Source: Roseivivax halodurans JCM 10272
GTDB taxonomy: Bacteria; Pseudomonadota; Alphaproteobacteria; Rhodobacterales; Rhodobacteraceae
Assembly (NCBI RefSeq): GCF_000521785.1
Contig: NZ_JALZ01000030.1
Location: 1-34,811 of the forward strand
Reading direction: 5' to 3'
Length of the DNA stretch: 34,811 nucleotides
Below the pieces are notes generated by a model. The model saw nothing but the letters and a program-made list of their open reading frames with translations. It had not been told where the DNA came from and made no database searches. Both the position numbers and the translations under genes were made by a program. Below are positions 3,596-26,888 of this stretch, piece by piece. The stretch's first letter is position 1; each line of letters starts with the position of its first letter.

Positions 3596-3620
3596 GCTCT
3601 CCTCCTCTACATGACTCATG

Positions 3621-5785: not shown

Positions 5786-6280
5786 TTATCGGTTTAGTCC
5801 GAGCTTTTCAGCCAGCGCCACGCGGCCCCGGGCCAGGCGGCTCATCACCGTCCCCTTGGGGATCTCCAGAACCTCAGCGGCTTCGGCATAGCTCAGCTCT
5901 TCGAAGCAGACGAGGCGGATGACCTCTCTCTGATCCGCAGGCAGTGTGGCCAGTGCGGCCTCGGTTTCGCGCAAGGCCAGAGATGCCTCGCTGGCGCGGG
6001 ATCCGTCGTAGATCGCCGCCTCGGGCATCTCGTGCACGTCGACTTCGGTGCCCCGCGTGATCTGCCGGCGGGTCATGTCGATCCAGGCATTGCGCAGGAT
6101 GCGGAAAAGCCAAGGTCTCACTGCGGTCGCCGGATCATATCCCCGCCGGCCCGCCATCGCCCTCTCGGCGGTGATCTGGACCAGATCGTCCGCAACGTCG
6201 CCCCGGCGGCAGAGGGACAGGGCATAGCGGCGCAGCGCCGGAACCGCCTCGATCAGGTCAGTCTCGAAACGATCCGTCAT
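5786..6280 (-). CDS. ECF RNA polymerase sigma factor
   Basis: A 164-residue group IV sigma factor. Region 2 is visible in DDLVQITAERAM and RPWLFRILRNAWIDMTRR. Region 4 is LPADQREVIRLVCFEELSYA followed by EAAEVLEIPKGTVMSRLARG, a helix-turn-helix that reads the -35 box. I start at ATG 6280 (MTDRFETDLIEAVP); the longer frame to 6388 adds sequence that would lie under the divergent subtilase leader. It is followed by its anti-sigma factor. GGAAT-N16-CGTA/T promoters next to this gene are the natural targets. Its own promoter is not obvious: on this strand GGAAT (6350-6346) is followed after 16 bases by ATTA instead of CGT. Confidence 0.92.
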   Translation of the reverse strand: MTDRFETDLIEAVPALRRYALSLCRRGDVADDLVQITAERAMAGRRGYDPATAVRPWLFRILRNAWIDMTRRQITRGTEVDVHEMPEAAIYDGSRASEASLALRETEAALATLPADQREVIRLVCFEELSYAEAAEVLEIPKGTVMSRLARGRVALAEKLGLNR

Positions 6281-6321
6281 CCGGTTCAGGCTCTTTTCCG
6301 TACCAGCCGCGGGCTTACTGC

Positions 6322-6346
6322 GGAATAATGCCCGGAATCGCACGTA
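6322..6346 (+). promoter_or_regulatory. ECF-type promoter for subtilase
   Basis: GGAAT (6322-6326), a 16-base spacer and CGTA (6343-6346), ending 35 bases before ATG 6382. It is identical in boxes and spacing to the promoter at 4092-4116. It lies in the 101-base gap between the divergent sigma factor and subtilase genes and is partly palindromic (GGAATA...TATTCC), so it may also serve the sigma gene weakly. Confidence 0.65.
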
Positions 6347-6381
6347 TTCCCCGAGACATTCCGGAGAAGAACGGAAAAGCC

Positions 6382-7731
6382 ATGACAAACAGGCCTCGAG
6401 GCGATGGGTTCAGTTGGCGCCGCAAGACCATGGTGGCGTTGGTCTTGGCCCTCCTCGTGCCGGCTCCGGCGGCTGTCCTGCTGCTGGGATCGGCGACCAT
6501 CGTGCTTGCCGATGACGACGATGATGACGGCCGGGATGACGATGACGACGATGGCGGAGATGATGACGATGATGACGGACCCATACGGGTTCGCCGTGCG
6601 CCGGTGCCGGTCGCGCCCGCGCCACCACCGCCCGTCTTCGCGCCCGACGAGATCGTGGCGCTGTCCCTCAGTGATGAGGATCTGGCCACGCTCGTGGCGC
6701 AAGGTTTTGCGGTAATCGAGGAGATTTCGCTCACCGAGTTCGGAGAAACCTCGCGCCGGTTGCGCATCCCCGGGGGCACGACGCTGATTGCGGCGCGCGA
6801 CATCGTGCAGGCGCTTGCGTCGGGCGAGGCCGCCGACTTCAACCATTACTACCGCTCCGAGCAAGGCTTCGACGGCTGCTCGGGGGCCAGTTGCCCGGCC
6901 CGTCGGTCGATCGCCTGGCCGGTCCAGTCCGTGCGGGACACCTCCTGTGGACGCAGCGCAACCATCGGTATGATCGATACCGGCATCAACGGAGATCATG
7001 AGACCTTCGCTGGGGCTGCGCTCGATTTGCGACGGATGTCTCCCGAGAGCTTCGATCCCTCCGGCGCCGTCCATGGCACGGCGGTCGCGGCGCTGCTCGT
7101 GGGCGACCCCGCGACGCGTGCAGCCGGCCTCGTGCCGGGCGCGCGGCTGGTGGCTATAGACGCGTTCCACCGCCGGGGATCGGACGAGCGGGCCGACATC
7201 TTCACCCTGATCGAGGCGCTCGACACCTTGGCGACCGAAGAGGTGGGCGTCATCAATCTCAGCCTCGCGGGACCCCCGAATGCCGTTCTTGAAGCGGTCG
7301 TGGAGCGTCTCGTGCGCGATAGGAACATCGTCGTCGTGTCCGCCGTGGGCAACGGAGGACCTGCCTCCGAGCCAGCTTATCCCGCCGCTTATGCCCCGGT
7401 GATCGCAGTGACCGCCGTCGACCGGGCGGGCGAGGTCTACCGCCGTGCGGTCCGGGGCGATCACGTGGACCTGGCCGCGCCCGGCGTGGATGTCTGGACC
7501 GCCGCCTCGATCAGCGGTGCACGCCAGAAGACCGGCACCTCCTTCGCGGTACCATTCGTCTCCGCCGCAGCGGCAATCCTTCGCGAGGCGCATCCCGATC
7601 TTCCCGCAATCGAGGTTGCCGCCCGGCTCCGCGATCTTGCGCGCGATCTCGGCGAACCCGGTCCCGACGCCATTTTCGGCGCGGGTCTCGTCGGTCTCGG
7701 GGCGCTCTGCGACGGGGCACGGGATGGTTGA
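6382..7731 (+). CDS. secreted subtilisin-like serine protease with poly-Asp segment
   Basis: A 449-residue S8-family protease. A signal peptide (RRKTMVALVLALLVPAP, residues 13-29, ending near LADD) is followed by a remarkable Asp run at 44-65 and a Pro-rich linker (about 72-86). A propeptide-like region leads to the catalytic domain. The triad is intact: Asp199 in IGMIDTGINGDHE, His231 in VHGTAVAALLVG, Ser387 in TGTSFAVPFVSA, with the oxyanion Asn324 in SAVGNGG. Two Cys pairs (DGCSGASCP, DTSCG) suggest a disulfide outside the cell. The start follows the signal peptide and lies 35 bases after an ECF promoter. It may act in envelope stress proteolysis, possibly needing Ca2+ via the Asp segment; that part is inference. 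Confidence 0.9.
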   Translation: MTNRPRGDGFSWRRKTMVALVLALLVPAPAAVLLLGSATIVLADDDDDDGRDDDDDDGGDDDDDDGPIRVRRAPVPVAPAPPPPVFAPDEIVALSLSDEDLATLVAQGFAVIEEISLTEFGETSRRLRIPGGTTLIAARDIVQALASGEAADFNHYYRSEQGFDGCSGASCPARRSIAWPVQSVRDTSCGRSATIGMIDTGINGDHETFAGAALDLRRMSPESFDPSGAVHGTAVAALLVGDPATRAAGLVPGARLVAIDAFHRRGSDERADIFTLIEALDTLATEEVGVINLSLAGPPNAVLEAVVERLVRDRNIVVVSAVGNGGPASEPAYPAAYAPVIAVTAVDRAGEVYRRAVRGDHVDLAAPGVDVWTAASISGARQKTGTSFAVPFVSAAAAILREAHPDLPAIEVAARLRDLARDLGEPGPDAIFGAGLVGLGALCDGARDG

Positions 7732-7743
7732 AACCAGCTTGGC

Positions 7744-8415
7744 CTATCCAATGCTGTAGCCCGCCCCGCGCTTGGTCTTGATGAGCTGCTTGGTCTCTCC
7801 CTCGTCCACCTTCTTGCGCAGGTAGCGCACGTAGACATCGACGACCTTGGTGCCGGGATCGAAGCCGTATCCCCAATTGTTGTTCAGGATCTGTGTCCGG
7901 CTGAGGACGGTCCCGGCATTCTCCATCAGGTAGCGCAAAAGCGCGTATTCCTTGCGCGTCAAGCTGATCTCGCGGCTCCCGCGCCGCACCTCGCGTGACC
8001 GCAGATCGAGCGTGAGGTCCTCCACGCGCAGCACCGGCTCGAGGCTCTCGGGTGTGCCGCGACGCAGCAGGGCCTCGACCCGCGCGACGAATTCGTCGAA
8101 CGAGAACGGCTTTGTCACGTAGTCGTCCGCCCCCGCATAGAGCCCGCCGATCTTGTCGGCGACCGCGTCCTTGGCCGTCAGCATCAGGACGCGGCAGGTA
8201 TGGTTCTCGGTGCGGAGCTGTCGGCAGATCTCGACACCGTCCATGTCCGGCAGCATCCGGTCGAGAATGACCAGCGCGTATTCAGTGGACCGCGCCATCG
8301 TGAGGCCATCGAGCGCCTTTTCAGCGATGTCGATGACGTGCCCCTCGGAGGCCAGACCCCGGGAGACGAAGCTGGCGATGCGCGGATCGTCTTCAACGAG
8401 TAGAATTTTTGCCAT
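7744..8415 (-). CDS. OmpR/PhoB-family response regulator
   Basis: A 223-residue two-domain regulator. The receiver domain (1-115) has the acidic pocket Glu8-Asp9-Asp10, phospho-acceptor Asp52 in ILDRMLPDMDG, Thr80 and Lys102 (VTKPFSFDEF). The C-terminal winged helix (about 130-223) has the usual SLTRKEYALLRYLMENAGTV and the end KTKRGAGYSIG. It lies 6 bases downstream of the histidine kinase and is the last gene of the export operon, so it probably regulates that operon or the target response. It converges on the subtilase with 12 bases between the stops and no visible terminator. Confidence 0.93.
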   Translation of the reverse strand: MAKILLVEDDPRIASFVSRGLASEGHVIDIAEKALDGLTMARSTEYALVILDRMLPDMDGVEICRQLRTENHTCRVLMLTAKDAVADKIGGLYAGADDYVTKPFSFDEFVARVEALLRRGTPESLEPVLRVEDLTLDLRSREVRRGSREISLTRKEYALLRYLMENAGTVLSRTQILNNNWGYGFDPGTKVVDVYVRYLRKKVDEGETKQLIKTKRGAGYSIG

Positions 8416-8421: not shown

Positions 8422-9996
8422 TCACGCGATCAAGGGAAAACGAAGGGTCACGATCGTCTCGTGGTCCGCGCTCTTGAGACAGATGCCGCCGCTGTGGGTG
8501 TCGGCGATCCATTTGGCAATCGGCAGTCCGAGGCCGCTGCCGACGGCAATCCTTTTCTCGGTCTGGTGACCGCGGTAGAAGCGGTGGAAGACGAAGGGCA
8601 GGTCGCTGGCGGGTATTTCAGGACCAGAGTTTTGGACGCTGACCACGGCATCCGGGCGGGCACAGCTTAGGGTGATGTTCACCGAAGCCCCTCGGTCCGA
8701 ATATTTGACGGCATTGTCGAGGACGATCAGGAACGCCTGGATGAGGCGTTCGGCGTCACCCTCCACTTCGCAGGGTGTCTCATCGATTTCGGCATGAAGC
8801 AGCACGCCGGCCTCGGCGGCCAGAACGCGGGCTTCTGCGAGCGCGACGTCGAGCACATCCTGGAGGACAAGCGGCTCCATCTCGAACCGGATCGCGCCCA
8901 CTTCGGCCCGCGACAGGAACAAGAGGTCCTCGATCAGTCGGCCCATCTGCTGAGTCAGCACGACGATGCGGCCCAGCGTCTCGCGGTATTCCTCGACCGG
9001 CTTATCGCCACGCAACACGATCTCGGCTTCTCCGCGCAGCACGGTCAGCGGCGTCCGCAGCTCGTGACCGATATCGGCCAGGAACAGCATTCGCATCTCG
9101 TCGAGCTTTTTCAGCCGGCCGTTCGCATCCTCGAGCTGGCTCGTCCGTCGGCCGATCTCGGTCTCCAGTCCCGACTGGACCTCGAGAAGCTGCCGGCGCT
9201 GTGCCTCGAGCTGCGCGGCGGTGACGTTGAACTGGTCCGCCAGATCGGAGAATTCGTCCTTCTGGTCGTAGGATATGCGATATGCCAGATCGCCGTCACC
9301 GATCGCCTGCGCTCCCGAGATCAGGGCCCGGATCGGTCGGGTCAGCGTCCGCGCCAGTATCGCACCAGCGATCAGCGAAACGGCCAGAGCGGCCAGGCAG
9401 ATCACGATGACCAGAAGCGTCAGTTGCTGCTCAAGTCGGTTGGTCTGCGTCTGGATGAGATTGAGCTCTCTGGTCTCGCCTTCGATCGCGGCCGAAATGT
9501 ACTTCTCGAGCTCCTCGTCCATTCGGTCCTCGATCTCGTCGCGAAAGAGCTCCACGGCTTCCTCCTGACGGCCGGCATCACGCAGGAACATCAGCCGCTG
9601 CGCCGTCAGGTCGATCGACTCGTAGAGCTCACGCATCGCCTCCACGCGCACCAGTTCCTCACGCTCTGCCTCCTTTTCCGTTGCCGAGCGCACGAAGCCG
9701 ATTTCCTCCTCGATCAGGTCGGTCAGACGGTCGAGGCTGTCTTCGAGGCTGCCGCGGGCCACGTAGAAATCATCCAGTTCCGTCCGTCCGAGCAGGAGCA
9801 TCTCCGCGATGTTTTCCGAGTAGCGGTTCATGTGCGCTGACAGGCGGATCACGGTGTCCATCTGCGCCCGCGCCAGTCGGCTGCGATCGAAATAATAGTC
9901 TATGCGTTCGATCGCGAAATACGTCGCCCCCGCCGTACTAAGCAACATGAAGGCCACGACCGCCTGGAAGGCGATGATCTTGGCCAGTATGCTCAT
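8422..9996 (-). CDS. membrane sensor histidine kinase with HAMP domain
   Basis: A 524-residue kinase. The first membrane span is at about 5-29, a helical, acidic sensor region at 30-190 (a four-helix-bundle type, rich in Glu and Arg), the second span at about 192-214, HAMP at 215-268, a coiled coil, then HisKA with the phospho-accepting His311 (IGHELRTPLTVL) and HATPase with DNAVKYSDRG and GSGLGLPIAKWI. The ATG at 9996 is preceded by GAGAGG and places the first span right at the N-terminus. It overlaps the end of the exporter gene by 59 bases and precedes its response regulator by 6, which ties sensing to peptide export in a single transcript. Confidence 0.92.
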   Translation of the reverse strand: MSILAKIIAFQAVVAFMLLSTAGATYFAIERIDYYFDRSRLARAQMDTVIRLSAHMNRYSENIAEMLLLGRTELDDFYVARGSLEDSLDRLTDLIEEEIGFVRSATEKEAEREELVRVEAMRELYESIDLTAQRLMFLRDAGRQEEAVELFRDEIEDRMDEELEKYISAAIEGETRELNLIQTQTNRLEQQLTLLVIVICLAALAVSLIAGAILARTLTRPIRALISGAQAIGDGDLAYRISYDQKDEFSDLADQFNVTAAQLEAQRRQLLEVQSGLETEIGRRTSQLEDANGRLKKLDEMRMLFLADIGHELRTPLTVLRGEAEIVLRGDKPVEEYRETLGRIVVLTQQMGRLIEDLLFLSRAEVGAIRFEMEPLVLQDVLDVALAEARVLAAEAGVLLHAEIDETPCEVEGDAERLIQAFLIVLDNAVKYSDRGASVNITLSCARPDAVVSVQNSGPEIPASDLPFVFHRFYRGHQTEKRIAVGSGLGLPIAKWIADTHSGGICLKSADHETIVTLRFPLIA

Positions 9997-12115
9997 CCAT
10001 CACGCCCTCTCTGCGTTCGTCCGACGCAATCTTGCCCTTGCGGAACGTTATGACCCTCTCGGACGCCATGATCGTTTCTGGACGATGCGCCACGACGATG
10101 CGGGTCGGCGACAGCTTTTTCAGCGAGTCGTTCACTTCCCTCTCGCGCGCCATGTCGAGATGGCTCGTCGCCTCGTCGAGCAACAGAAGTCCCGGTGCAC
10201 GGTAGAGCGCACGGGCCAGCAGGATGCGCTGCTTCTGGCCGCCCGACAGCACCGTGCCCATATCGCCGATCAGCGTGCCGTAACCCATGGGCATGGCGGC
10301 GATGTCGTCGTGCACGGCTGCGTGCCGGGCGCAGTCCTCGATCCGGGCGGGATCGGCTCCCGAGGCGAAGAAGGCGATGTTGTCTGCGATGGAGCCGGCG
10401 AAAAGGCTGTCATCCTGCATCACGACGCCGATCCTTGCCCGCCAGGTCTGTGGATCCAGGCGTGCCAGCGGTTCGCCATCGACCAGGATGGTGCCGGATG
10501 TGGGCTCCAGAAGTCCCGCTATCAGCTTCAGGAGCGTGGTCTTACCGCAACCGGACGGCCCCGCGAACGCAACGGACTCGCCCGGCGCGATCCGGAAGTC
10601 GAGCCCGTCCAGCACCAGCGGATCGTTCGGTCCGTAGCGGAACGACACGTCCCGGACCTCTATCCCGATCGGCGTCTGCCGTGCCGCCGCGGGGCGCGGA
10701 TCGCCGGCGGGTTCGGGCGCGGTCAGCGCGATATCCGCGAGCCGTTCGGCATGCAGGCTCAGCATCCGCAACTCCACGAAGGTGTCGATCAACCCGCTGA
10801 CGCGTCGCACGAACAGGTCCTTGTAGGCGATGAAGGCGATCAGCAGACCGACCGAGAAGACGTTCTGGAAGATCATCCGCGCCGCGAGATAGACGACGAG
10901 AATCCCCAGGAACCCGAGCAGAAGCCCGTTCGCCGTGCGGAAGACCAGGTTCAGCCGCTGCGTGATGAGCTGGCGGTTGGTGGTCTCGACCAGCAGGTTC
11001 AGCCAGTGCGCCCTCCGGTCCTGCTGCCCGTTGAAAAGCTTGATCGTCTTGACGCCGCGCATCGTCTCGAGAAAATGGCTGTCGCGCCGCGCCGCCCAGA
11101 TGATCGCCTCCGCAGAGGCCTGCCGAAGTGGCATGTAGAACGACCAGCGCAGCAGGGCGTAGAGGGCCGCGCCGACCAGCGCCACGGTCGCGAGCGTCGG
11201 TGCCAGGACGAACATGACGATCAACGTGACAACGCACATGAGCCCGTCGAGGATGGCGACCACCAGGTCGGTGGTCAGGGTCTGCAGGATCGTGTCTTGG
11301 CTGTCGAAGCGCGACATCACGTCGGCCACGTGGCGCGTTTCGAAATAGGTCGCCGGTAGCGCGATCAGGTGCGAGAAGAGGTTGGTGCGCGCCTGCACCT
11401 TCAGGGACGCCCCGAGCGTGATCAGCATCCAGCTCCTCAGCACGCCGATTGCCGTCTGCAGGAGCAGCAACAGGCCGAAGGCGATCGCCAGCGTCAGAAG
11501 CAGGCCCCGGTCGGCCGAGACGATGGCCTGATCGACCGTCAGGCCCAGGAAGAGCGGCGCGAGGAGCGCGAAGATCTCCAGCGCGAAGGCCAGCAGCAGA
11601 AGCTGCGCCAGCGACCGGCGCATTCCCGTGATCCGGCCCAGAAGCGCACGGATGCGAATGCGCGGCGGGGCCGCCGCCGGCTCGAAGCCGCCGGTCGGCG
11701 TGAGTTCCAGGGCCACGCCCGAGAAGTGGCGGGACAGGTCGGCCATCGACAGGCGGCGCACGCCCTCGGCCGGATCGTGGATCGTCACGCCGCCGCGCCG
11801 CACCGCCTTGAGAACGATAAAATGGCTCAGGTCCCAGTGCAGGATGCAGGGCAGCCGCAGCAGCCGTAATTCATCGACCTCGAGGCGGACCGGACGCGAC
11901 GCGAGACCGATCCGGTCAGCGACCGCGATCACGTCCTTGAGGGTCGCTCCCTTCAGCGAGAACCCGTGCCGGCGCCGCAAGGCACCGGGATCGGAATGCT
12001 GACCGTGAAAGCCCGCGATCATCGACAGGCAGGCAAGGCCGCATTCCGCGGCTTCCGCCTGCAGCGTCACCGGCAGTCGACGGCCCCAGCCGAACTGCAA
12101 CCCTTCCACTCTCAC
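9938..12115 (-). CDS. C39-peptidase ABC exporter (PCAT) for double-glycine peptides
   Basis: A 725-residue fusion of three modules. The C39 peptidase (about 1-130) has Gln19, catalytic Cys25 (AAECGLACLSMI), His98 (SHFIVLKAV) and Asp114 (HDP), so it should cleave. A six-span membrane domain lies at about 155-450, then an ATPase with Walker A (GPSGCGKTTLL), signature LSGGQKQR, Walker B LLLLDEATSHLD and the switch His in VVAHRPE. Such exporters cut double-glycine leaders and export the core peptide (CvaB/RaxB/LagD type). I start at GTG 12115, which overlaps the HlyD stop by 4 bases; GTG 12160 would add 15 residues. It is the exporter for the 54-residue peptide upstream. Confidence 0.93.
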   Translation of the reverse strand: MRVEGLQFGWGRRLPVTLQAEAAECGLACLSMIAGFHGQHSDPGALRRRHGFSLKGATLKDVIAVADRIGLASRPVRLEVDELRLLRLPCILHWDLSHFIVLKAVRRGGVTIHDPAEGVRRLSMADLSRHFSGVALELTPTGGFEPAAAPPRIRIRALLGRITGMRRSLAQLLLLAFALEIFALLAPLFLGLTVDQAIVSADRGLLLTLAIAFGLLLLLQTAIGVLRSWMLITLGASLKVQARTNLFSHLIALPATYFETRHVADVMSRFDSQDTILQTLTTDLVVAILDGLMCVVTLIVMFVLAPTLATVALVGAALYALLRWSFYMPLRQASAEAIIWAARRDSHFLETMRGVKTIKLFNGQQDRRAHWLNLLVETTNRQLITQRLNLVFRTANGLLLGFLGILVVYLAARMIFQNVFSVGLLIAFIAYKDLFVRRVSGLIDTFVELRMLSLHAERLADIALTAPEPAGDPRPAAARQTPIGIEVRDVSFRYGPNDPLVLDGLDFRIAPGESVAFAGPSGCGKTTLLKLIAGLLEPTSGTILVDGEPLARLDPQTWRARIGVVMQDDSLFAGSIADNIAFFASGADPARIEDCARHAAVHDDIAAMPMGYGTLIGDMGTVLSGGQKQRILLARALYRAPGLLLLDEATSHLDMAREREVNDSLKKLSPTRIVVAHRPETIMASERVITFRKGKIASDERREGVMDEHTGQDHRLPGGRGLHVA

Positions 12116-13416
12116 GCCTCGGTCCGCCCGGTCAGCGAATGGAGCGGATCGAGGATCCACTGATAAAGGCGGCGGGTCTCGATCAGAATATCGGCACTCA
12201 GGGTCATGCCCGGTTGGAGCGGGGCCTCTGTTCCGTAGGCGGTCGCGTTCTGCGCGGCGATGCGGACGGTGACGCGATAGACCGGCTCCGCCCGGTCGGT
12301 CGCCGGGGCCGTGGCCCCAGCGGTGTCGAGCTCGTCCTGCCTGATCGTGGACCGGGAGACCGAGGCCACGGTGCCCTCGTAGAGCCCGAATTTCTGATAG
12401 GGATAGGCGTCATAGCGGATGCGGACCTCCTGGCCGGGACGCACGAAGCCGATCGCGCTACTGGGGCCATAGAGCCTTGCTTCGAGCAGCGCGCCCTGCG
12501 GCACCAGGGTCATCAGGGGCAGGTCGGGGCCCGCTCCGCCACCAGCGGAGGCGCGCACGGCCGTCACCGTGCCGGCATGCGGCGCCGCGATGACGATCTC
12601 GCGGGCGGCTTCGGCTTCGGCGATGTCCTGATCCAGCGCTGCCACAGCGCGGTCGATCTCTGAGAGTTGCAGCGCAGCACGGACCGGGGCCTCCTCCCGC
12701 GCAGCCTCGATCTCGAACCGCTCGCGCGCGAGCGTGCCGCGCTGGCGCTCCAGGATCTGCAAGGCCAGCGCCTGGTCGAGCGCCTCCTCCTCGGCGGCCC
12801 GCAAGGCCTCCGCCGTGATGAGATCGCGTTGCCTCAGATCACGCTGCCGCTCCTGCGTCTGCCGGGCCAGATCAAGCCGGGCGCGCTGCAGACCGAACTC
12901 GGCCTCAAGATCTTCGGCTGCCGCGTCCAAAGCTGCCAGACGTCTCTCCTGGGCCCCATCCTGACTGTCGAAAAGGGCGCGATAGCGGTCCCTCTCCGCC
13001 AGAAGGGCGTCACGTCGGACGCGCAGCGCGCGCACGACCTCACCTTGGGTGGCGCCCATCGTCTCGCTCTGGCGTTCGATGGACAAGACCGCCAGCGTCG
13101 CGCCGCGCTCGACCTCGAGCCCCTCGCTCGCCGCGACCTGGGTCAGGACCCCGGCTTGCGGCGCCATCACCTGGATCAGGCCGCCCTCGGGAGCGAGCGA
13201 GCCCTGGAGCCGCGCCTTTCGGGTGTATTCGCCGAACGTGACAAGCCCGATCACTCCGGCGACCAGAAGTGTCGCCGTGCCGGTTAGCAGCGCATGCGAC
13301 AGCCGCGGGGCCAGCAACACATTCCCAAGCCAGCGGTCCTGCTGCTCGGCCACGGCTTCGGGCCGGAAGAGGGATGTGTCCCGGGCCTGCGCCTCGGTGG
13401 CGGGCCCGTCGCTCAT
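12112..13416 (-). CDS. HlyD/CvaA-family periplasmic adaptor
   Basis: A 434-residue membrane fusion protein. A short cytoplasmic tail (1-38) precedes one membrane span (about 40-62, HALLTGTATLLVAGVIGLVT), then a lipoyl half (GGLIQVMAPQAGVLTQV), a long coiled coil (about 125-275, full of Glu, Arg, Gln), the second lipoyl half (IVIAAPHAGTVTAV) and beta-barrel domain (ARLYGPSSAIGFVRPGQEVR). It links the inner-membrane exporter to an outer-membrane channel, presumably TolC from elsewhere, since none is in this window. Its ATG overlaps the previous gene's stop (ATGA) and its stop overlaps the exporter start. Confidence 0.92.
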   Translation of the reverse strand: MSDGPATEAQARDTSLFRPEAVAEQQDRWLGNVLLAPRLSHALLTGTATLLVAGVIGLVTFGEYTRKARLQGSLAPEGGLIQVMAPQAGVLTQVAASEGLEVERGATLAVLSIERQSETMGATQGEVVRALRVRRDALLAERDRYRALFDSQDGAQERRLAALDAAAEDLEAEFGLQRARLDLARQTQERQRDLRQRDLITAEALRAAEEEALDQALALQILERQRGTLARERFEIEAAREEAPVRAALQLSEIDRAVAALDQDIAEAEAAREIVIAAPHAGTVTAVRASAGGGAGPDLPLMTLVPQGALLEARLYGPSSAIGFVRPGQEVRIRYDAYPYQKFGLYEGTVASVSRSTIRQDELDTAGATAPATDRAEPVYRVTVRIAAQNATAYGTEAPLQPGMTLSADILIETRRLYQWILDPLHSLTGRTEA

Positions 13417-14390
13417 GCCCCGCCCTCGTAGACGGTGTAGTCCCTGACCTCGAAGCTGACCTCGACGAGTTTCTTCGTCCGCCGTGTGCGCAGGAGTGTC
13501 CTGATGGCCGGGTCGAAGAAATCCTTCAGGATCGGCGGACGCGGGGACCGGAAATAAAATGTCGGATCGTCCACGACCGGTTGCGCGGCCGAAACCTCAA
13601 GCTCGTCCCGCCGGGTCACTGTCTGGATGACGCAAGGGACATGGGTGACACCGGCCATGCGCATCGCGACGGCGCGATGATAGCCGTTGTGGAGCACCAT
13701 CCTGTCTTCTGAACGGATGAGTGTCAGGAAGTTCGAGCCGTAGCCCACAAACAGCCCGACGGCGCCCGAGACCGGCGCGAAGGACTCGCGCCCCGTGACC
13801 TGATCGGCACGCAACATGGCCGTTTCGTGGAACCTCAGATCGTTCGAGTCCGAGGAGAACACGAAGCGCTGATTGCCTAGCCGCATGATCTCGACGGGCG
13901 GGTCGCGGCGCTCGAACGGCTGGCAGAAGCGGAACAGATCCTTAGGGTCGGGGCGCGGATCGAGCTTCGCCGCCAACGCCTCGACAAAAGGCAGCGTCAC
14001 ACGCCGCTGCGACACGACGATCTTGTCAAGCTCGACCATGCCGAAGGTCGTGGGCATCCGGTCGAACGTGTTGCGGAAGTGCTCGCGCTCCGACAGGTCC
14101 TCGGCCAGCGACGCAAGCTCGGCGGGCAATTCCAGGCAGTCGATCTCGTCGGCGATGCCCGCCTCGGTCGTCTCCAGTTCGGCATAATGGTCGTTGGCCT
14201 CCCGCCAGGCATCCACCAGGAGCCGGCGGTCGAGGCGGTCCCCCCCGTCGACGGCCTTCCTGACATGGTCGAGAAAGTCGGCGAGGGTTGGCTGGCCCAG
14301 AAGCCATAACTCATCCTGGGTGTCGGCATCGTCCCTACCGGCAACGCGGCACAGTTCCGCCTCCAGTCCGACTTCGCTTTCGAAGGGCAT
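13413..14390 (-). CDS. unknown protein of peptide-export operon, ParB-like motif
   Basis: A 325-residue soluble protein with no signal peptide or membrane span. I do not recognise its family with certainty. The stretch VLHNGYHRAVAMRMAGVTHV at about 232-251, continuing PCVIQ, resembles the ParB/sulfiredoxin-fold signature (DG.HR..A....G...VP), here NGYHR with His238-Arg239. The N-terminal half is acidic and helical (DCLELPAELASLAEDLSERE). It lies between the peptide gene and the HlyD gene, with a 4-base overlap to the latter, so it is almost certainly made together with the export system. It could modify, chaperone or confer immunity to the peptide; the sequence does not decide. Confidence 0.75.
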   Translation of the reverse strand: MPFESEVGLEAELCRVAGRDDADTQDELWLLGQPTLADFLDHVRKAVDGGDRLDRRLLVDAWREANDHYAELETTEAGIADEIDCLELPAELASLAEDLSEREHFRNTFDRMPTTFGMVELDKIVVSQRRVTLPFVEALAAKLDPRPDPKDLFRFCQPFERRDPPVEIMRLGNQRFVFSSDSNDLRFHETAMLRADQVTGRESFAPVSGAVGLFVGYGSNFLTLIRSEDRMVLHNGYHRAVAMRMAGVTHVPCVIQTVTRRDELEVSAAQPVVDDPTFYFRSPRPPILKDFFDPAIRTLLRTRRTKKLVEVSFEVRDYTVYEGGA

Positions 14391-14489: not shown

Positions 14490-14654
14490 TCAGCTGCTGC
14501 TGTTGCCGCCGCTGTTGGAGTTGTTGCGATTGTTGCCGCTGTTGGAATTGCTGTTGCTGCCGTTGCGACGCCGTGCCTTGCGTTTCCGGCGGCGGCGACC
14601 CCGGCCACCGGCACCATAAACGCTCTCGAGTTCCTCGGTTTTTAGATCGCGCAT
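14490..14654 (-). CDS. double-glycine-type precursor peptide with Arg-rich core
   Basis: A 54-residue peptide starting MRDLKTEELESVYGA, a short double-glycine-type leader. Aligned to ELxxVxGG, Glu9 and Leu10 take E-8/L-7, Val12 takes V-4, and cleavage falls after Gly14-Ala15. GA is a known substitute for GG. The predicted 39-residue core opens GG, then runs almost wholly basic from Arg18 to Arg30 (11 of 13 are Arg or Lys), then a 24-residue tail of only Asn, Ser, Gly and one Arg. There is no Cys or Thr, so a lanthionine or Cys-disulfide product is unlikely. ATG 14654 has GGGAG at a good distance; a longer frame to 14810 lacks support. It heads an operon encoding its own C39 exporter. Confidence 0.82.
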   Translation of the reverse strand: MRDLKTEELESVYGAGGRGRRRRKRKARRRNGSNSNSNSGNNRNNSNSGGNSSS

Positions 14655-14714
14655 TCGTCTTCTCCCAGTGGAAGGAACCAGGAATTGGCCCCTTGCGCCT
14701 AGAGATGAGAAAAT

Positions 14715-18934: not shown

Positions 18935-20023
18935 CTATTCGTTATGATCGGCGTGCGCACCCCGAGCGCGATTGAAGATCCGGAAGACCAGTAGGATCGT
19001 CGAGCACACCACTAGAATTCGCAGGACATGAAACGCGGTGACGATCTCGGCATCCAGATGCATTGCCCGCGCCGTGAGAACCATCTCGGTCATAGCTGCA
19101 GGCGCAAGCGCGAGGAACGAGGTCGTCCGCGACAATCCCGTAGCGACCGACAGGAGCCACGAGCCGAAAAACGCTGCGCAGATCATGAAGAGCGCAGCCG
19201 CGACTCCGGCGAGCGCCACGCGGGGCAAGCCACCGATCACCTCGCGCCGGAACTGACTCCCCAGCCATGCGCCAAGCAAGATCTGCGCGATGAGCAGGAT
19301 CGGTTCGGGCGCACCGACATGCAGGATGTTCGTCACGCCCAGCAGGATCCCGGCAAGCATCGGGCCGATCAGCCACGCGTTCGGCAGAGGGCTCCGTTTC
19401 ACTAAAGCCACGCCAACCAACGCCGGGATGAGGGCGGCCACCAACCAGATCATGCTTTGCGGATCTGGGCGCTCCGCCATCGCGCCCCCTCCCTCGGTTC
19501 CGAAAGCGGTGGCGAGGAACGGAACCACGGCCACGGTCGTCGAGACTCGCAGTGCATGGACCATGGCGACGGAAGAGGGGTCTCCCCCCTTCTGCTGAGC
19601 GACATAGGCCATGTCGGCCACACCGCCGGCGGCGGTCGAGAAAAAGGCCGTCACCGGTTTCGTTCGGGCGAGGTATTGAAAGCCGAACGACGCCAACATC
19701 GTATAGGCCATAACGTACAGCGTGGCAGCCACCATGGCCGGCAGGAGCGAAACCATCGTCATCAGGGTGGCGGGGGTAAAGCGGAGCCCCACGATCAATC
19801 CTACGGCCATCTGACCGCATTCGCGCCCATAGGGCATGGTCTTCAAGTCGAGGCCGGCAGCGGAAAGCACGCCGCCGACAAAGAAGGGACCGAGCATCCA
19901 GGGAAGCGGCAAGCCGGCGATGGCGAACGTGTAGCCCGCGATGGCGGCGATCGCATAGGTCGCCGCGATGCGGGGCAGGGCGGCGCGCCATTGCCGGAGT
20001 TCCGTTGCCCTGGTTGACTTCAC
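18935..20023 (-). CDS. AbrB-family (DUF/COG3180) membrane protein
   Basis: A 362-residue integral membrane protein with about ten hydrophobic segments and an internal duplication typical of the family once called AbrB or putative ammonia monooxygenase (for example PLPWMLGPFFVGGVLSAAGL in the first half and LPNAWLIGPMLAGILLGVTN in the second). Despite the name it is no transcription factor; it is a likely transporter or permease with unknown substrate, and is often found beside TTT transporters and MmgE/PrpD genes. It overlaps the preceding prpD-type gene by 4 bases and ends the minus-strand catabolic operon. Confidence 0.85.
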   Translation of the reverse strand: MKSTRATELRQWRAALPRIAATYAIAAIAGYTFAIAGLPLPWMLGPFFVGGVLSAAGLDLKTMPYGRECGQMAVGLIVGLRFTPATLMTMVSLLPAMVAATLYVMAYTMLASFGFQYLARTKPVTAFFSTAAGGVADMAYVAQQKGGDPSSVAMVHALRVSTTVAVVPFLATAFGTEGGGAMAERPDPQSMIWLVAALIPALVGVALVKRSPLPNAWLIGPMLAGILLGVTNILHVGAPEPILLIAQILLGAWLGSQFRREVIGGLPRVALAGVAAALFMICAAFFGSWLLSVATGLSRTTSFLALAPAAMTEMVLTARAMHLDAEIVTAFHVLRILVVCSTILLVFRIFNRARGAHADHNE

Positions 20024-21462
20024 GCCGTCCGGACCAACGCCATCAGATCCCCAAGATCAGACTGAGTCTCGAAGTCTGCGACCATCTCGACCACTCGATC
20101 GGCCCGCGAACGGTCCCAACCGGCAAATTCAGCATTCTCACGGAACTTGTCGGCCACCTCGTCATAGCTCATCGGGTTCGCGGGGCTCCCCTTGCCGAAA
20201 TCGGCCATGCCGGACACGGTACGACCGTCCTTCATCTCGATGTCGATATAGGTGGTCATCTTGTGATACCCGGCATCTTCGGCGCGGTCGTCCACAACGA
20301 AATCAACCTTCTTGATCATCGCCTGAACGTCCTCGCGATTGACCACCTCGTCGGTAAATTCAGGAAGCCCGCCGCGTCCCTCGAGAAGCAGAATCGCCAT
20401 GCAGAACTCCATGGAGAACTTGGCCTGCAGTTCGGTGGTGGGCTGATGATGGATTAGTGCGTTCGGCATATTCGAGTTTGTGCCGACCCGGACATGGGCC
20501 ACGTCTTCGGCCTTGATGTCGTTGGCCCGGATCAAATCGAGCATCTCTGTCATCCCGGGATGGGTAAGCGACCCCGACGGATGCGGCTTGATCGAGACAC
20601 CAGGATTGTCGAACGTCCACGGCGCACCGAGCTTGCCCCGGATCGCCGCGGGATCGTAGCCGCCGCCCGCGGCGCGGAAGAAGCCGCGCATCGCCTCGAG
20701 GATGTTCTCGCTCGCGGTCCATCCAAGTTCCGCGAATTCAGCCGCGACCACCCCAGATTCCGACGCGCGCCCGGCGTGAAACGGCTTGGTCATCGTGCCG
20801 AAGTTCTCTCGCAGCCCAGCCGACTGGCTGCCGGCAATCGACAGCGCGCGACAGAGGGTCGTTTGATCGAGGCCCATCAACCGGCCCGCAGCAGAGGCTG
20901 CGGCGAAGGTTCCGCAGGTCGCAGTCGCGTGAAAACCGGTGCGGTAGTGGCGCGGATCGATTGCCTCGGCAATCTTGCACTCGACCTCGACCCCCAGGTG
21001 GTAGGCCAGCATCACGTCGGCGCCGTTCGCCCCCCGTGCTTCGCCGACTGCAAGGGCCGCCGGCAGGGCGGGTGCCGTTGGGTGCGTCAGAAGGCCGTAG
21101 ACCCGGTCCTTGGCCACCGCAAGCTGGGTGTCGTCGTAATCGTCCGCGTGGATGCCAACACCGTTAGCGAAGGCGGCGAAACGTGGAGCGAGGTTCCGGT
21201 TCCAGCCGAGCACCGTGGACGGCCCGTCACCTAGCGACTGGGCCGAAAGATGCTTGCGGACAAGCTCGCCCGATTTCGCGACTGAGCCCGACAGGGCAAG
21301 TCCGAAACCGTCGAGGATCGACTTTTTCCCGTTTTCGACGACGACCGCCGGAACGTCGTTGAGCGACGTGCCCCTCACGAACTCCGCAACCTCGGAGGTC
21401 ATTCCGCTGCCCGCTTCCGTCCAGGCGTTCTCCGAGCTCTGGTTGTCGATGGCGTCTTTCAT
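20020..21462 (-). CDS. MmgE/PrpD-family protein (first copy)
   Basis: A 480-residue member of the MmgE/PrpD family, which includes 2-methylcitrate dehydratase, cis-aconitate decarboxylase and iminodisuccinate epimerase. The family's features are visible: GIHADDYDDTQL (HxxDxDD-like), HLGVEVECKIAEAI, and GFHATATCGTFAAASAAGRL, with the KPHPSGSLTHP region later. Substrate specificity is not readable. It stands 63 bases downstream of the PdxA2-like gene and overlaps the AbrB-type gene by 4 bases. The other copy at 28977 is only distantly similar in its N-terminal half but shares the same motifs. Confidence 0.9.
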   Translation of the reverse strand: MKDAIDNQSSENAWTEAGSGMTSEVAEFVRGTSLNDVPAVVVENGKKSILDGFGLALSGSVAKSGELVRKHLSAQSLGDGPSTVLGWNRNLAPRFAAFANGVGIHADDYDDTQLAVAKDRVYGLLTHPTAPALPAALAVGEARGANGADVMLAYHLGVEVECKIAEAIDPRHYRTGFHATATCGTFAAASAAGRLMGLDQTTLCRALSIAGSQSAGLRENFGTMTKPFHAGRASESGVVAAEFAELGWTASENILEAMRGFFRAAGGGYDPAAIRGKLGAPWTFDNPGVSIKPHPSGSLTHPGMTEMLDLIRANDIKAEDVAHVRVGTNSNMPNALIHHQPTTELQAKFSMEFCMAILLLEGRGGLPEFTDEVVNREDVQAMIKKVDFVVDDRAEDAGYHKMTTYIDIEMKDGRTVSGMADFGKGSPANPMSYDEVADKFRENAEFAGWDRSRADRVVEMVADFETQSDLGDLMALVRTA

Positions 21463-21525
21463 CGTTTTCTCCTGTATTAATTGGTCAATGCGGCTTTTGC
21501 CGCGCGCTCTTCCTCGAACTCCCCG

Positions 21526-22542
21526 CTACGAGGCGAGTCTCATTGCTCGTTGTCGCCTAACGAGTTGGGTCGCGAGCGAGATCGCCGCCTCGTAGGCCCC
21601 GGTATCGGCCACGCCCTTACCGACAATGTCATAGGCTGTGCCGTGAGCGGGGGTCGTGAAGACAGTTTCGAGCCCCGCAGTCACCGTCACGCCGCGGTTG
21701 AAGCCATGCATCTTCGTCGCGATCTGGCCCTGGTCGTGGTACATTGCGAGTACGCTGTCGTATTCGCCGGCGAAGGCCTTGAGATAGACCGTGTCGGAAG
21801 GGAACGGGCCCTCGCAGGCGATGCCCTCGCGCGCCATTTGTTCGACCGCGGGACGAATGAGATCAATTTCCTCGCGGCCAAAGAGTCCGTTTTCACCCGC
21901 ATGCGGATTCAGCGCGGCCACGGCGATGCGCGGGCTCTCGATTCCCGCCGCCCGCATCGTGCGATCGCCCAAACGCAAGGCCCGGCAGATTGCCTCGTGG
22001 TTGATCTGATCGATGGCCTCGCGAAGGGAGACATGGCTGGTGACCCGGGTCATCCACTTGTCGCCGAGAACATTCATTTCGGAGAAGGGGCCGCTATGGC
22101 CGAGAAGATGAGCGAACATCTTGTGCTCGTCGGGGAATTTCCATCCGCCGTCGTAAAGGGCGCGTTTGTTCAAGGGCGCGAATGTCACAGCATCGATCTC
22201 GCGCGCCTTCGCAAAATCGATGGCGCGCGACAGTGTTTCGCCAGTCAGCCGCCCGGCTTCCGCGTCGGGCCGCCCCTGTGGCAAAGCGTTGGGATCGATG
22301 TTGCCCAAGTCGACCATCGGAACCGCGCCGTCCGGAACATCCTCGCTCGGTGTCGCGACAGCTTTCAGCTGAAGCGTGACGCCGGCCTCGCGCATGCCGC
22401 GGTCCATCACGCGCCGGTCGCCCACGATCACGAGGCGTACCTCCTTGGCGAAGCGGCCATCGGCCAAGATGCGGGCGGTCTGTTCGGGGCCAATCCCTGT
22501 CGGGTCGCCTGGCACAAGAGCGATTGTCGGAATGCTGGTCAT
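21526..22542 (-). CDS. PdxA2-like 4-hydroxythreonine-4-phosphate dehydrogenase family
   Basis: A 338-residue enzyme of the PdxA fold. It starts with IALVPGDPTGIGPEQTARIL and has the three metal-binding histidines: His170 (RVTSHVSLREAI), His214 (NPHAGENGLFG) and His269 (MYHDQGQIATK), plus TPAHGTAYDIVGKG. True PdxA makes vitamin B6, but a copy within a catabolic operon is the PdxA2 type, which in known cases oxidises and decarboxylates 4-phosphothreonate or erythronate-type acids. The gene is 13 bases downstream of the tartrate-dehydrogenase-like gene. A D-threonate kinase (DtnK) is absent, so the substrate is probably something else. Confidence 0.85.
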   Translation of the reverse strand: MTSIPTIALVPGDPTGIGPEQTARILADGRFAKEVRLVIVGDRRVMDRGMREAGVTLQLKAVATPSEDVPDGAVPMVDLGNIDPNALPQGRPDAEAGRLTGETLSRAIDFAKAREIDAVTFAPLNKRALYDGGWKFPDEHKMFAHLLGHSGPFSEMNVLGDKWMTRVTSHVSLREAIDQINHEAICRALRLGDRTMRAAGIESPRIAVAALNPHAGENGLFGREEIDLIRPAVEQMAREGIACEGPFPSDTVYLKAFAGEYDSVLAMYHDQGQIATKMHGFNRGVTVTAGLETVFTTPAHGTAYDIVGKGVADTGAYEAAISLATQLVRRQRAMRLAS

Positions 22543-22555
22543 GGTGTGGTCCTCG

Positions 22556-23626
22556 TCAGATGGCGGCGGCGATGGCCTTGCCGCACTCTTCCGTTCCCAA
22601 GGGGCCGCCCAGATCCTTGGTTCTCAGGGTCTCGTCGGCCAGAACACCCTCGATCGCGTCGGTCATGGCCGATGCGGCATCGGAATGGCCGAGATGGTCG
22701 AGCATCATGGCCCCGGCCCAGATCTGGCCGACCGGGTTCGCGATGCCCTGTCCCGCAATGTCCGGCGCCGAGCCGTGGACGGGTTCGAACAGCGACGGGA
22801 AATTCTTCGGCGGATTGAGATTCGCCGACGGCGCAATGCCGATCGTCCCGGTACAGGCGGGTCCGAGATCAGAAAGGATATCGCCGAACAGGTTGGATCC
22901 GACCACGACGTCGAAGCGGTCCGGATTAAGAACGAAATGGGCGGTCAGGATGTCGATATGGTACTGATCCACACTCACATCCGGACGGGTCTTGGACATT
23001 TCGGCCACCCGTTCGTCCCAATACGGCATGGTAATCGAGATGCCGTTCGACTTCGTGGCAGACGTGAGCTTCTTGCGCGGCCTCGATTGCGCTACGTCGA
23101 AAGCGAAGGCAAGGATCCGATCAATCCCCTGACGGCTCATCACCGTTTCCTGGATGACGATCTCGCGCTCGGTCCCGGCATACATCTTCCCGCCGATTGA
23201 GGAATACTCGCCCTCGGTGTTCTCTCGCACGACAAGGAAGTCGATGTCGCCCGGCTCGCGTCCGGCGAGCGGGCAAGGCACGCCGGGCATAAGCTTAACC
23301 GGCCGGAGGTTCACATACTGATCGAACTCGCGCCGGAATTGCAGCAGCGAACCCCAAAGTGAAATGTGATCGGGAACGGTGTCAGGCCAGCCAACTGCAC
23401 CGAAGAAGATGGCGTCATGCCCGCCAACGCGATCCTTCCAATCCTGCGGCATCATCTCGCCGTGCCGCGCATAGTAGTCGCAACTCGCGAAGTCGAACTC
23501 GTCGAAGTGCAGGTCGAGGTCGAACTTTTTGGCCGCCGCCTTCAGCGCACGCAGCCCCTCGGGCATGACCTCCTTGCCGATGCCGTCACCGGCAAGGACC
23601 GCGATGCGATGGGTGTTCTGGGCCAT
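22556..23626 (-). CDS. tartrate/D-malate dehydrogenase-like beta-decarboxylating dehydrogenase
   Basis: A 356-residue member of the isocitrate/isopropylmalate dehydrogenase family. It opens IAVLAGDGIGKEVMPEGLRA and carries LVVRENTEGEYSSIGG, DLGPACTGTIGIAPSANLNP and LFEPVHGSAPDIAGQGIANP. The small, substrate-discriminating residues and length are closest to D-malate/tartrate dehydrogenases, which oxidise a 2-hydroxy acid with beta-decarboxylation using NAD+ and Mn2+. The gene is downstream of tctA by 38 bases and upstream of a PdxA2-like gene, so the transported acid is probably its substrate or precursor. Confidence 0.88.
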   Translation of the reverse strand: MAQNTHRIAVLAGDGIGKEVMPEGLRALKAAAKKFDLDLHFDEFDFASCDYYARHGEMMPQDWKDRVGGHDAIFFGAVGWPDTVPDHISLWGSLLQFRREFDQYVNLRPVKLMPGVPCPLAGREPGDIDFLVVRENTEGEYSSIGGKMYAGTEREIVIQETVMSRQGIDRILAFAFDVAQSRPRKKLTSATKSNGISITMPYWDERVAEMSKTRPDVSVDQYHIDILTAHFVLNPDRFDVVVGSNLFGDILSDLGPACTGTIGIAPSANLNPPKNFPSLFEPVHGSAPDIAGQGIANPVGQIWAGAMMLDHLGHSDAASAMTDAIEGVLADETLRTKDLGGPLGTEECGKAIAAAI

Positions 23627-23664
23627 TGGGCCTCCGTCTTGGTTGTTTTAACGTACCGGCGAGG

Positions 23665-25185
23665 TCACTCGCCCGTCGGTGTTTGCGAGCTGCCAGACGT
23701 GCGCCGTCGCATCGCCTTCAGGCCGCTTCCGATGAACGGGCTGGCGAGGCTCAACACGGTGAGCACGAAGAACAGGTTCGCGATCCAGCTATGGAAGAAC
23801 ATGGTCCAGTCGCTGTCGAAGATGATCATCGCCTGGCTCCAGTTGTTCTCGAGCAGGTAACCGAGAACGAGGCCCATCACGAAGGGCGCAGGCCCAAAGC
23901 CGTGGCGCAGTGCGACGAAGCCGACAAGACCGGAGATCAGCATCACCCAGACGTCGAACATCTGCTGCTGGTAAGCGTAGGAGCCGACAATCGCGAAACA
24001 GAAGACCGACGGCCACAAGAACGTTCGCGGGACCAGCGTGATCATGGAGAACAGTTTCGCGCCCGCAAGCCCGATAAACAGAAACAGCAGGTTGGCGACG
24101 AACATGGCCGCGAAGATCGCATAGAGGATCTCCGGGTTCTCGGTCATCAGGAAGGGACCGGGGCGGAACCCGTGCATTATCAGTGCCGCGAGGATGACGG
24201 CGGTGGTGCCGCTACCAGGAATGCCGAGCGCGAGGGTGGGGACCATCGCCCCGGAGGTGCCGGCGTTGTTCGCCGCCTCGGGCCCGGCCACGCCCTCGAT
24301 GCAGCCCTTGCCGAATTCCTCGGGCGTCTTCGACCAGCGCTTGGCCTCGTTGTAGCCCATGATCGCCGCGACCGTGGTTCCCTCAGCCGGCAGGATTCCA
24401 ACAATCGTGCCAATGCCGGTGGAGCGCAGGATTGTCCTCCAGACCTTCCGGAAGTCGGCGAGGCCCGGCAGCTTGATCGCCACCTGCTTGATCCGCTGAA
24501 GCGCCTTGTCCGGCGCGTCGGCCTTCTTGAGAAGCTCCGCAATGGCGAAAACGCCGATCAGGACCGGAACGAAATCGATCCCGTCATAGAGGAAGGTCGT
24601 GTTAAAGGTGAACCGCTCAACCCCGGTGACGAGATGAATGCCCACCATGGACACGAGCACGCCGAACATCCCCGCGATCAAGTTGCGCGGCGCGGACTTG
24701 CCTGAGATCGCCGCCAGCATCGAGAGGCCGAAAAGCGTCAGAGCGAAGTATTCCTGCGGCCGAAAGCTCAGCGCGACCGACGCCAGAAGCGGCGCGGCGA
24801 TGATGAACGCCACGAGGCTCAGGAGACCACCCGTGACGCTGGAAACCGCGGCGATGCCAAGCGCGCGGCCCGCCTCGCCGTTCTGCGCCATCGGATAGCC
24901 GTCGAGAGCTGTCGCCACCGCGGGCGGCGCGCCCGGGGCATTGATCAGGATTGCCGTGATCGATCCCCCGAACGTGCCCGCGACGTAGAGCGCAGCCATC
25001 ATCGAGATTGCCACCGTCGGCTCCATGCCGATGGTGAAGGGCAACAGCAACGCCACCGCCATGGTCGAACTGAGCCCCGGCAGGGCCCCGACCATGACGC
25101 CGGCCATGACCGAGAACAGGATCAATCCCAGACTTGTCGGCGTCATGATTAGCGATATGCCGGTAAGTATGGCGTCGGGGTTCAT
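23665..25185 (-). CDS. tctA: TctA, large permease of a TTT transporter
   Basis: A 506-residue permease with about 11-12 membrane spans. It starts MNPDAILTGISLIMTPTSLG and has the family motifs MAGVMVGALPGLSSTMAVAL and later TLALGIPGSGTTAVILAALI. Start is set at ATG 25185; upstream codons in frame lack family similarity. Together with TctB and TctC it forms a secondary, membrane-potential-driven tripartite tricarboxylate transporter; its partners sit just upstream on the same strand, with 14 bases between tctB and tctA. Substrates of such systems include citrate, tartrate, terephthalate and similar acids. Confidence 0.93.
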   Translation of the reverse strand: MNPDAILTGISLIMTPTSLGLILFSVMAGVMVGALPGLSSTMAVALLLPFTIGMEPTVAISMMAALYVAGTFGGSITAILINAPGAPPAVATALDGYPMAQNGEAGRALGIAAVSSVTGGLLSLVAFIIAAPLLASVALSFRPQEYFALTLFGLSMLAAISGKSAPRNLIAGMFGVLVSMVGIHLVTGVERFTFNTTFLYDGIDFVPVLIGVFAIAELLKKADAPDKALQRIKQVAIKLPGLADFRKVWRTILRSTGIGTIVGILPAEGTTVAAIMGYNEAKRWSKTPEEFGKGCIEGVAGPEAANNAGTSGAMVPTLALGIPGSGTTAVILAALIMHGFRPGPFLMTENPEILYAIFAAMFVANLLFLFIGLAGAKLFSMITLVPRTFLWPSVFCFAIVGSYAYQQQMFDVWVMLISGLVGFVALRHGFGPAPFVMGLVLGYLLENNWSQAMIIFDSDWTMFFHSWIANLFFVLTVLSLASPFIGSGLKAMRRRTSGSSQTPTGE

Positions 25186-25199
25186 GGAAATCGCTCCGA

Positions 25200-25736
25200 T
25201 CAGAACAGAGAGCTGAAGGCGCCGCGCGGGAAATTTACGCGCAGGACCTGCGAGAACAGGAGGTAGACGGCGAGCGGGAAGAGGGCCGCGTAGGGGACGA
25301 GGATCTTCCAGCGCCTTTCGCCCCACATCAGTGGCATGGCGACCGCGATGAGGATCAGCGCGGGCAGGGCACCGAGCCAGGGAAAGGCCAGCAGGAACCC
25401 CACGAGCGCCACGCCGGTGATCCAGACGATCATGTCTGGTCGGTCGGCGCGCTCCTCATCCAAGTCAATGCCGCGCTCAATCTTTCTGGCGTATTCGAAC
25501 GGCAGGAATACCGTGATGGCCATGATCACGACCAGTACCAGCCGCGGAAACGTGGTCGGCAGGACGTTCTGCGCCAGGGATGATGGGACGCTGTCAAACC
25601 AGTAGGTGTTAACGTAGAGGAACGCACAGATCGTGATGACGACAAGCGCCACGATGAGATCTGGAATGTGTGTGCTCACGGGACCGGAGGGGGCACGCCC
25701 CCTCCGGTCCTCGGTATCAGAGTCGCTCTGGGTCAT
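25200..25736 (-). CDS. tctB: TctB, small permease of a TTT transporter
   Basis: A 178-residue membrane protein with four hydrophobic segments: one at about 26-46 (LIVALVVITICAFLYVN), one near 65-80 (PRLVLVVIMAITVFLPF), a pair around 105-135, and the end RWKILVPYAALFPLAVYLLF. This is the usual TctB plan. The gene lies 6 bases after tctC and 14 before tctA. It stabilises TctA in the membrane; family assignment rests on topology, size and position. Confidence 0.85.
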   Translation of the reverse strand: MTQSDSDTEDRRGRAPSGPVSTHIPDLIVALVVITICAFLYVNTYWFDSVPSSLAQNVLPTTFPRLVLVVIMAITVFLPFEYARKIERGIDLDEERADRPDMIVWITGVALVGFLLAFPWLGALPALILIAVAMPLMWGERRWKILVPYAALFPLAVYLLFSQVLRVNFPRGAFSSLF

Positions 25737-25742
25737 GGCCGA

Positions 25743-26735: not shown

Positions 26736-26888
26736 CCTCTTTCCTCCCTCGATGATCTGGATCCCCTGACCGCCACTTACGGCGGTCAGTGCGTTCAGCG
26801 ACGGCGTTCAGTCCGAACGCCGCCTCGTAGCGCCAGCCCTCCCGAAGCCGGATCACAACGATGTAGCAGACCCTAAGACATCAGAATA

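Follow-up and report, generated by a model that had tools for sequence, protein, structure and literature searches.

A family of export-type, mostly basic, serine-containing peptides and its companion of predicted ParB/sulfiredoxin-type fold, a candidate peptide-modifying enzyme

The stretch of DNA analysed here (the window, 34,811 nucleotides of Roseivivax halodurans JCM 10272) contains, at positions 14490-14654 of the minus strand, an open reading frame of 54 codons that translates to MRDLKTEELESVYGAGGRGRRRRKRKARRRNGSNSNSNSGNNRNNSNSGGNSSS*. The locus raises the question of whether this frame is a gene and, if so, what would happen to its product before export. An earlier note had read it as an export-type peptide with a leader ending in Gly14-Ala15, a block at positions 18-30 in which 11 of 13 residues are basic, and a tail at residues 31-54 (24 residues of Asn, Ser and Gly plus one Arg); all three descriptions were recovered in the translation. 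The frame opens a run of minus-strand genes, which continues with the companion, HlyD, PCAT, histidine kinase and response regulator genes. The features are listed below, with the kind of evidence in brackets where it was recorded.

14490..14654, minus strand: precursor peptide gene, 54 aa (translation, upstream sequence, alignment, leader-pattern scan)
14610..14654, minus strand: 15-residue double-glycine-type leader MRDLKTEELESVYGA (alignment of 17 peptides)
14493..14609, minus strand: 39-residue core, an Arg/Lys block followed by an Asn/Ser/Gly tail, net charge +12 (translation)
14662..14666, minus strand: GGGAG ribosome-binding site of the peptide gene (upstream sequence)
13413..14390, minus strand: companion, 325 aa, of predicted ParB/sulfiredoxin-type fold, candidate peptide-modifying enzyme (profile, model and fold searches)
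13674..13688, minus strand: Box II motif N-G-Y-H-R, companion residues 235-239 (alignment)
12112..13416, minus strand: HlyD-type periplasmic adaptor
9938..12160, minus strand: peptidase C39-containing ABC exporter (PCAT), triad C40/H113/D129
8422..9996, minus strand: sensor histidine kinase (HAMP, HisKA, HATPase_c)
7744..8415, minus strand: OmpR-type response regulator

The start codon of the peptide gene is ATG and is preceded by GGGAG. The DNA of the tail is simple sequence with short direct repeats, which speaks for a spurious low-complexity frame. The window peptide gave no Pfam match at E 0.001 and was matched by none of the seven NCBIfam families that each matched one or two of the 17 peptides described below (best E 0.0054). 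Relatives were collected with the companion protein as bait; a scan of genome contigs gave nine and a scan of plasmids four, which together with the window make 14 main-branch loci, all of them kept. A strict leader pattern was matched 18 times in the 187,878 bases of these loci (at least once per locus), and not once in 20 block-shuffles or in 36 control loci (201,643 bases), of which 6 were of lasso type and 30 were ParB loci. Two leader-pattern peptides each were found in L006, L008, L012 and L016. The alignment of 17 peptides excludes the second L006 peptide, which is on the minus strand, and has the first L008 peptide without its last codon (one Gly), which does not alter its charge. The aligned peptides have a common start Met, M1, R2, L4, E8, V12 and G14 are invariant, and the GG/GA motif of PCAT-exported double-glycine peptides is conserved across the leaders.

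Differences per site in the leader amounted to 0.332, 0.328 and 0.653 at codon positions 1, 2 and 3 (17 sequences). The leaders of the window and of Paracoccus liaowanqingii are identical as proteins (dN 0 over 16 leader codons, dS being saturated and not computable); dN and dS were 0.26 and 2.5 for the window and L014, and 0.12 and 1.4 for L014 and L004. By these comparisons the leader is under purifying selection. In 12 of the 14 loci a same-strand peptide gene precedes the companion by 51-228 nt; L011 has a K/S-rich peptide gene downstream of the companion, and L012 has one peptide gene 1.3 kb upstream and a K/S-rich one just downstream. A later scan of 292 genomes of the order gave two new companions. 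One genome (G1452) has a peptide of the same design, followed by companion, HlyD, PCAT, kinase and regulator in the order of the window. In the other (G1410, locus L068) the operon is decayed: the companion is without its middle, the kinase gene is fragmented and an RS-repeat tail stands at the expected peptide position; neither an exporter nor a recognisable leader was found at this locus.

The earlier note was prepared to abandon the frame if no relatives stood beside PCAT operons and if the leader was neither conserved nor under purifying selection. With the leader in 14/14 main-branch loci and in G1452, and the exporter in 12/14, its view of a genuine export-type gene holds. Leader conservation, codon-position bias, the ribosome-binding site and recurrence in all 14 loci and one new genome refute the reading as a spurious frame, to which we assign a negligible probability; judged on this comparison, the 54-codon frame is a real gene.

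The same note had suggested looking for a common leader with variable basic cores beside PCAT operons of related genomes, and such peptides were found in the 14 loci: net charge was at least +10 in 13 of the 17 cores, +5 in two, +2 in one (the second L016 peptide) and -3 in one (the first L012 peptide), the last two being not strongly basic. K, R and H together make up 10-50% of the cores and S, G and N 30-82%, and Ser is present in 17/17. The Paracoccus core is 35 residues long, against 39 in the window. The repeats differ from record to record: NS in the window and Paracoccus cores, RS in Hansschlegelia (L009), KS in an Alphaproteobacteria MAG (L007), KGSH in a MAG labelled Eisenbacteria (L010), KKHST in L008, KGSKS in Blastomonas (L016) and GKGK/SSSS in a Geminicoccaceae MAG (L006). 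It thus looks as if composition, rather than sequence, is conserved in the cores, and on this alignment the Asn/Ser tail of the window core is one version of a broader basic, Ser-containing core type. The earlier note's description of the peptide and exporter stood; the 325-residue companion and this wider core type were missing from it.

Three further peptides were observed. The second double-glycine peptides at L016:3516-3698 and L012:4313-4564 are weakly or not basic and have a common NNGxGNG...APGNS motif; they may represent a distinct partner peptide or a two-peptide system. The extra double-glycine peptide on the minus strand at L006:1272, MRELDPSECDVVSGG..., has a Cys/Pro/Lys core and lies about 3 kb from the main peptide.

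The earlier claim of an intact catalytic triad in the C39 exporter of the same operon was substantiated: C40, H113 and D129 are aligned in 10/10 exporters (L006 and L007 were left out of this alignment), and the exporter belongs to the same tight gene run as the peptide, as is typical of a PCAT-exported double-glycine peptide. Such an exporter suggests that the core would be cleaved off and secreted. HlyD is present in 13/14 main-branch loci; no exporter was found within 12.9 kb in L012, and the sequence of L005 stops inside HlyD. Outer-membrane channel (OEP) genes were found in L008, L011 and L016, and the window's gene run contains no recognised one. The order from companion to regulator is as in the window on plasmids of Paracoccus liaowanqingii and Rhodobacter CZR27; the peptide frame upstream has no entry in the Paracoccus gene table shown, which is incomplete, and is a hypothetical protein in Rhodobacter. 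Two-component genes come after the exporter in the window, L013, L014 and L067, and relatives of them stand upstream on the opposite strand in L009; this two-component system probably controls the operon. A point against the earlier note's reading is that, of nine genomes of the genus, the exporter was found at E <= 1e-100 in that of the window alone, so that the distribution of the operon is patchy.

FemAB genes are present in 2/14 loci (L005:6976-7998 and L015:12781-13812, 49% identical), and the aminoacyltransferases that they encode could add residues to core Lys side chains; a 2OG-Fe(II) oxygenase gene is present in one (L016). A 229-residue protein with no Pfam match and no relative in the other 13 loci is encoded at L005:8001-8690, between FemAB and HlyD. 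Downstream of the operon in the window lie an ECF sigma factor gene (5786-6388) and a subtilase gene overlapping it on the opposite strand (6328-7731), and relatives of both (46% and 34% identity, respectively) occur near the Hansschlegelia operon. The window also encodes an HTTM/vitamin K-dependent gamma-carboxylase-like protein (2204-3619), which was dropped as an operon partner because its gene is not part of the gene run. At 18935-32205 there is a catabolic island of tricarboxylate type, some parts of which are duplicated; it comprises two MmgE/PrpD genes, two Iso_dh genes, PdxA, TctA/TctC transporter genes, AbrB and a GntR regulator.

The companion, encoded directly downstream of the peptide gene, belongs to no confidently named family. 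Pfam searches of 10 members gave two stray weak matches, no HTH model among them, and PF02195 (ParB_N) was not matched up to E 1 in any of the ten. Among 20 companions the kept residues include W62, Q128, S180, N235, G236, H238, R239, R284-P285-P286, D290 and P294. Two AlphaFold models were of middle confidence (pLDDT 76 and 75), and Foldseek ranked ParB-fold structures first for both. ParB, Noc, KorB, PadC, Srx, SbnI or SerK were named in 44 of the best 50 of 86 matches for the first model and in 40 of the best 50 of 83 for the second; six of the 50 listed per model were Atu1540, and the second list also held a Pyrococcus hypothetical protein and three others. All of these E-values were weak (best 0.04 among the matches listed) and the TM-scores were low. 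When the companion profile was aligned with that of 30 ParB_N domains (hhalign), the result was a probability of 77% and, for this single comparison, E 2e-5, with some 45 columns aligned around Box II; two control profiles gave E 0.53 and 0.2. With E 0.22, the ParB protein Spo0J was the best match in a profile search of PDB sequences, again at Box II.

Box II reads GxHR in 20/20 companions, in keeping with the GxxR of the ParB/Srx fold; the 30 ParB_N controls have GxRR in 26 cases and GAHR in one, and three did not fit the pattern. We take sulfiredoxin (GCHR) and SerK (GHHR) to have the same His. The NCBIfam family matched by most companions was SerK, an L-serine kinase (9/20, best E 8.1e-4); these were local alignments with a best score of 18.6 bits, the cut-off of the model (NF053625) being 380 bits. 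Because the chromosomal ParB of the same genome matches the model equally (E 9.6e-4, 19.4 bits), the match was discarded as evidence for a kinase and was kept as evidence for the fold, not for kinase chemistry. The catalytic Glu of SerK could not be located in the companion. About 110 residues precede the ParB-like part in the model, and a conserved RPPxxxDxxxP motif lies close to the C-terminus. Taken together, the profile, motif and model data support well the assignment of a ParB/Srx nucleotide-binding fold to the companion.

Companion-bearing records include Paracoccus, Rhodobacter, Methylobacterium, Hansschlegelia, Blastomonas, Methylobacter, Polaromonas and others, together with the Eisenbacteria MAG. 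The protein is rare: the genome of the window is alone among 394 genomes of its family, and companions were found in 3/398 genomes of the phylum sample, 1/385 of the class sample and, using a wider profile, 3/292 of the order sample (these samples overlap, and each of the four counts includes the genome of the window). Further plasmid scans with distant companions as query returned the same four records only. A phage origin was rejected, as the phage collection gave no match and the 67 pattern stretches in viral contigs included no relative.

A second companion branch was found in 6/198 genomes of another family. In 6/6 of these loci (L021, L022 and L027-L030) the companion homologue is an unexplained extra gene beside genes for a Transglut_core3 protease (lasso B2) and an Asn-synthase cyclase. 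The precursors have Thr at -2 and cores that end in TTSP (AHNHGTLWDGVFPTTSP in five, AHSHGTLWDGIFPTTSP in one); the lasso ring was assigned by Thr -2 and Asp9. By gene content these loci are lasso peptide clusters. They come from two genera of one family and their cores are nearly identical, so the six count as about one observation. The companion occurs in two unrelated ribosomal-peptide systems, which argues for an action on the peptide, although the lasso loci are close relatives of one another. This gene context lends good support to a part in peptide maturation, and the companion is probably a nucleotide-using peptide-modifying enzyme.

For the peptide operon we infer nucleotide use, a Ser target, phosphorylation, cleavage, secretion and regulation as parts of one scheme. 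Sensor and regulator would control the export operon, and the short double-glycine leader would serve to recognise and hold the precursor. Before export the companion would spend a nucleotide to modify core hydroxyls, most likely those of Ser, phosphorylation being the simplest such change. Next, the PCAT would cleave after Gly14-Ala15 with its C39 domain and, together with HlyD and an outer-membrane channel, export the 39-residue core as a small secreted polycation. SerK and SbnI, according to the part of PMC12704722 consulted, are serine kinases of the ParB/Srx fold, and one SerK-like protein assayed there bound CTP. For lasso peptides Ser phosphorylation is established, by other kinases (PMC9266682, in part). 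By analogy, our best guess for the companion is a Ser kinase that acts before C39 cleavage and export and yields a phospho-Ser/Arg-Lys zwitterionic peptide, resembling native silaffin-1A. The scheme as a whole (regulation probably by its own two-component system, nucleotide-dependent modification of core Ser, C39 cleavage and export of the polycation) is tentative, with a probability of roughly 40%. The product may bind surfaces, minerals or matrix in the manner of silaffins, or be antimicrobial. The boldest version, a new ribosomal peptide class in which a ParB/sulfiredoxin-fold kinase phosphorylates Ser in Arg/Lys-rich repeats and silaffin-like products condense silica, phosphate minerals or acidic cell-surface matrix, is a long shot.

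The peptide could instead be a microcin-like polycation, antimicrobial or cell-penetrating, that leaves the cell unmodified, with the companion as a nucleotide-dependent escort or an immunity-type protein. Class II microcins likewise combine a PCAT, an HlyD protein and a double-glycine leader, membranes are a common target of Arg/Lys-rich peptides, and the best NCBIfam models for the exporter include bacteriocin exporters, all under the cut-off. The window core, however, has one Ala and no other hydrophobic residue, unlike known pore-formers, and the companion also accompanies lasso clusters, which have maturation enzymes of their own. No immunity gene was recognised from the annotation of the window's gene run, where a gap of 99 nt is the sole space for a separate one between peptide and regulator. 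This explanation is a serious contender, if an unlikely one.

A different reaction of the companion on Ser, Thr, Asn or Lys, again nucleotide-dependent (nucleotidylation, glycosyl-phosphate transfer or amide chemistry), to which FemAB and 2OG-Fe(II) enzymes add more in some clusters, would agree with their genes in two and one of the 14 loci; these genes are, however, not universal, and sulfiredoxin, like the small-substrate enzymes of its fold, phosphorylates its substrate. In the part of PMC12704722 consulted, the nucleotide bound by ParB-fold proteins may be CTP, ATP or GTP and is not predictable from sequence, yet both small-substrate enzymes of the ParB/Srx fold named there are serine kinases. 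Many tailoring types are employed by lasso lineages, as far as the excerpt of PMC9266682 goes. We consider such a modification clearly unlikely. As for a ParB-like regulator or DNA-binding clamp unconnected to peptide chemistry, the detectable profile and fold relatives of the companion are indeed ParB-type proteins; its GxHR Box II differs from theirs, however, its Pfam matches in 10 members include neither an HTH nor a ParB model, the two-component system could serve regulation in several operons, and the protein adjoins peptide genes in two unrelated systems, all of which makes this role very improbable.

Literature searches for this core type with a ParB/Srx-fold partner gave no description among the matches listed, and curated families (Pfam, NCBIfam) gave no confident match for peptide or companion. 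The export system is known and the peptide family is a variant of double-glycine peptide systems; that the companion represents a new family of peptide-modifying enzymes is a credible claim. To our knowledge, and among the matches listed, no other ParB-fold protein has been linked to the maturation of ribosomal peptides; the companion would be the first, and in both exporter and lasso clusters. In the peptides, which are scattered over proteobacteria, composition (charge and Ser content) rather than sequence seems to carry the information, with leader and partner constant. The role of this ParB-like orphan becomes directly addressable by mass spectrometry.

Diatom silaffins are, like the peptides described here, basic, Ser-containing, repetitive and bound for the outside (compare KGSKS, SKSK and KGSHKGS). 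In the part of PMC4557024 consulted, native silaffin-1A is phosphorylated on Ser, silica formation without these phosphates needs added phosphate, and a diatom silaffin kinase favours basic substrates. The likeness is one of composition only, without homology and with another kingdom and another export route, and phosphorylation or mineral binding is conjectural here. With class II microcins (colicin V type) the system shares the leader L-x3-E-x3-V-x-G-(A/G), the C39 exporter with intact triad and the HlyD adaptor. It differs in its low-complexity, mostly polycationic cores, which have no confident match to named peptide families, in having no recognised immunity gene and in a ParB/Srx-fold companion at every main-branch locus, the companion having been the search bait. 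The companion resembles SerK, SbnI and sulfiredoxin in predicted fold, GxxR-type Box II and the lack of a matched HTH model; unlike them it has about 110 residues before the ParB-like part and RPPxxxDxxxP in its C-terminal region, it gave no significant full-length match to them, and its predicted substrate is a peptide and not free serine. The lasso Ser kinases PadeK, ThcoK and SyanK are marked by a His-Lys-Asp-Asp motif and have a C-terminal Ser as their target (PMC9266682, in part), and ParB is mentioned nowhere in this review. By prediction the companion has another fold than these kinases and would share with them the tailoring of a ribosomal precursor within a RiPP cluster, and the lasso core described here likewise has Ser near its C-terminus (TTSP).
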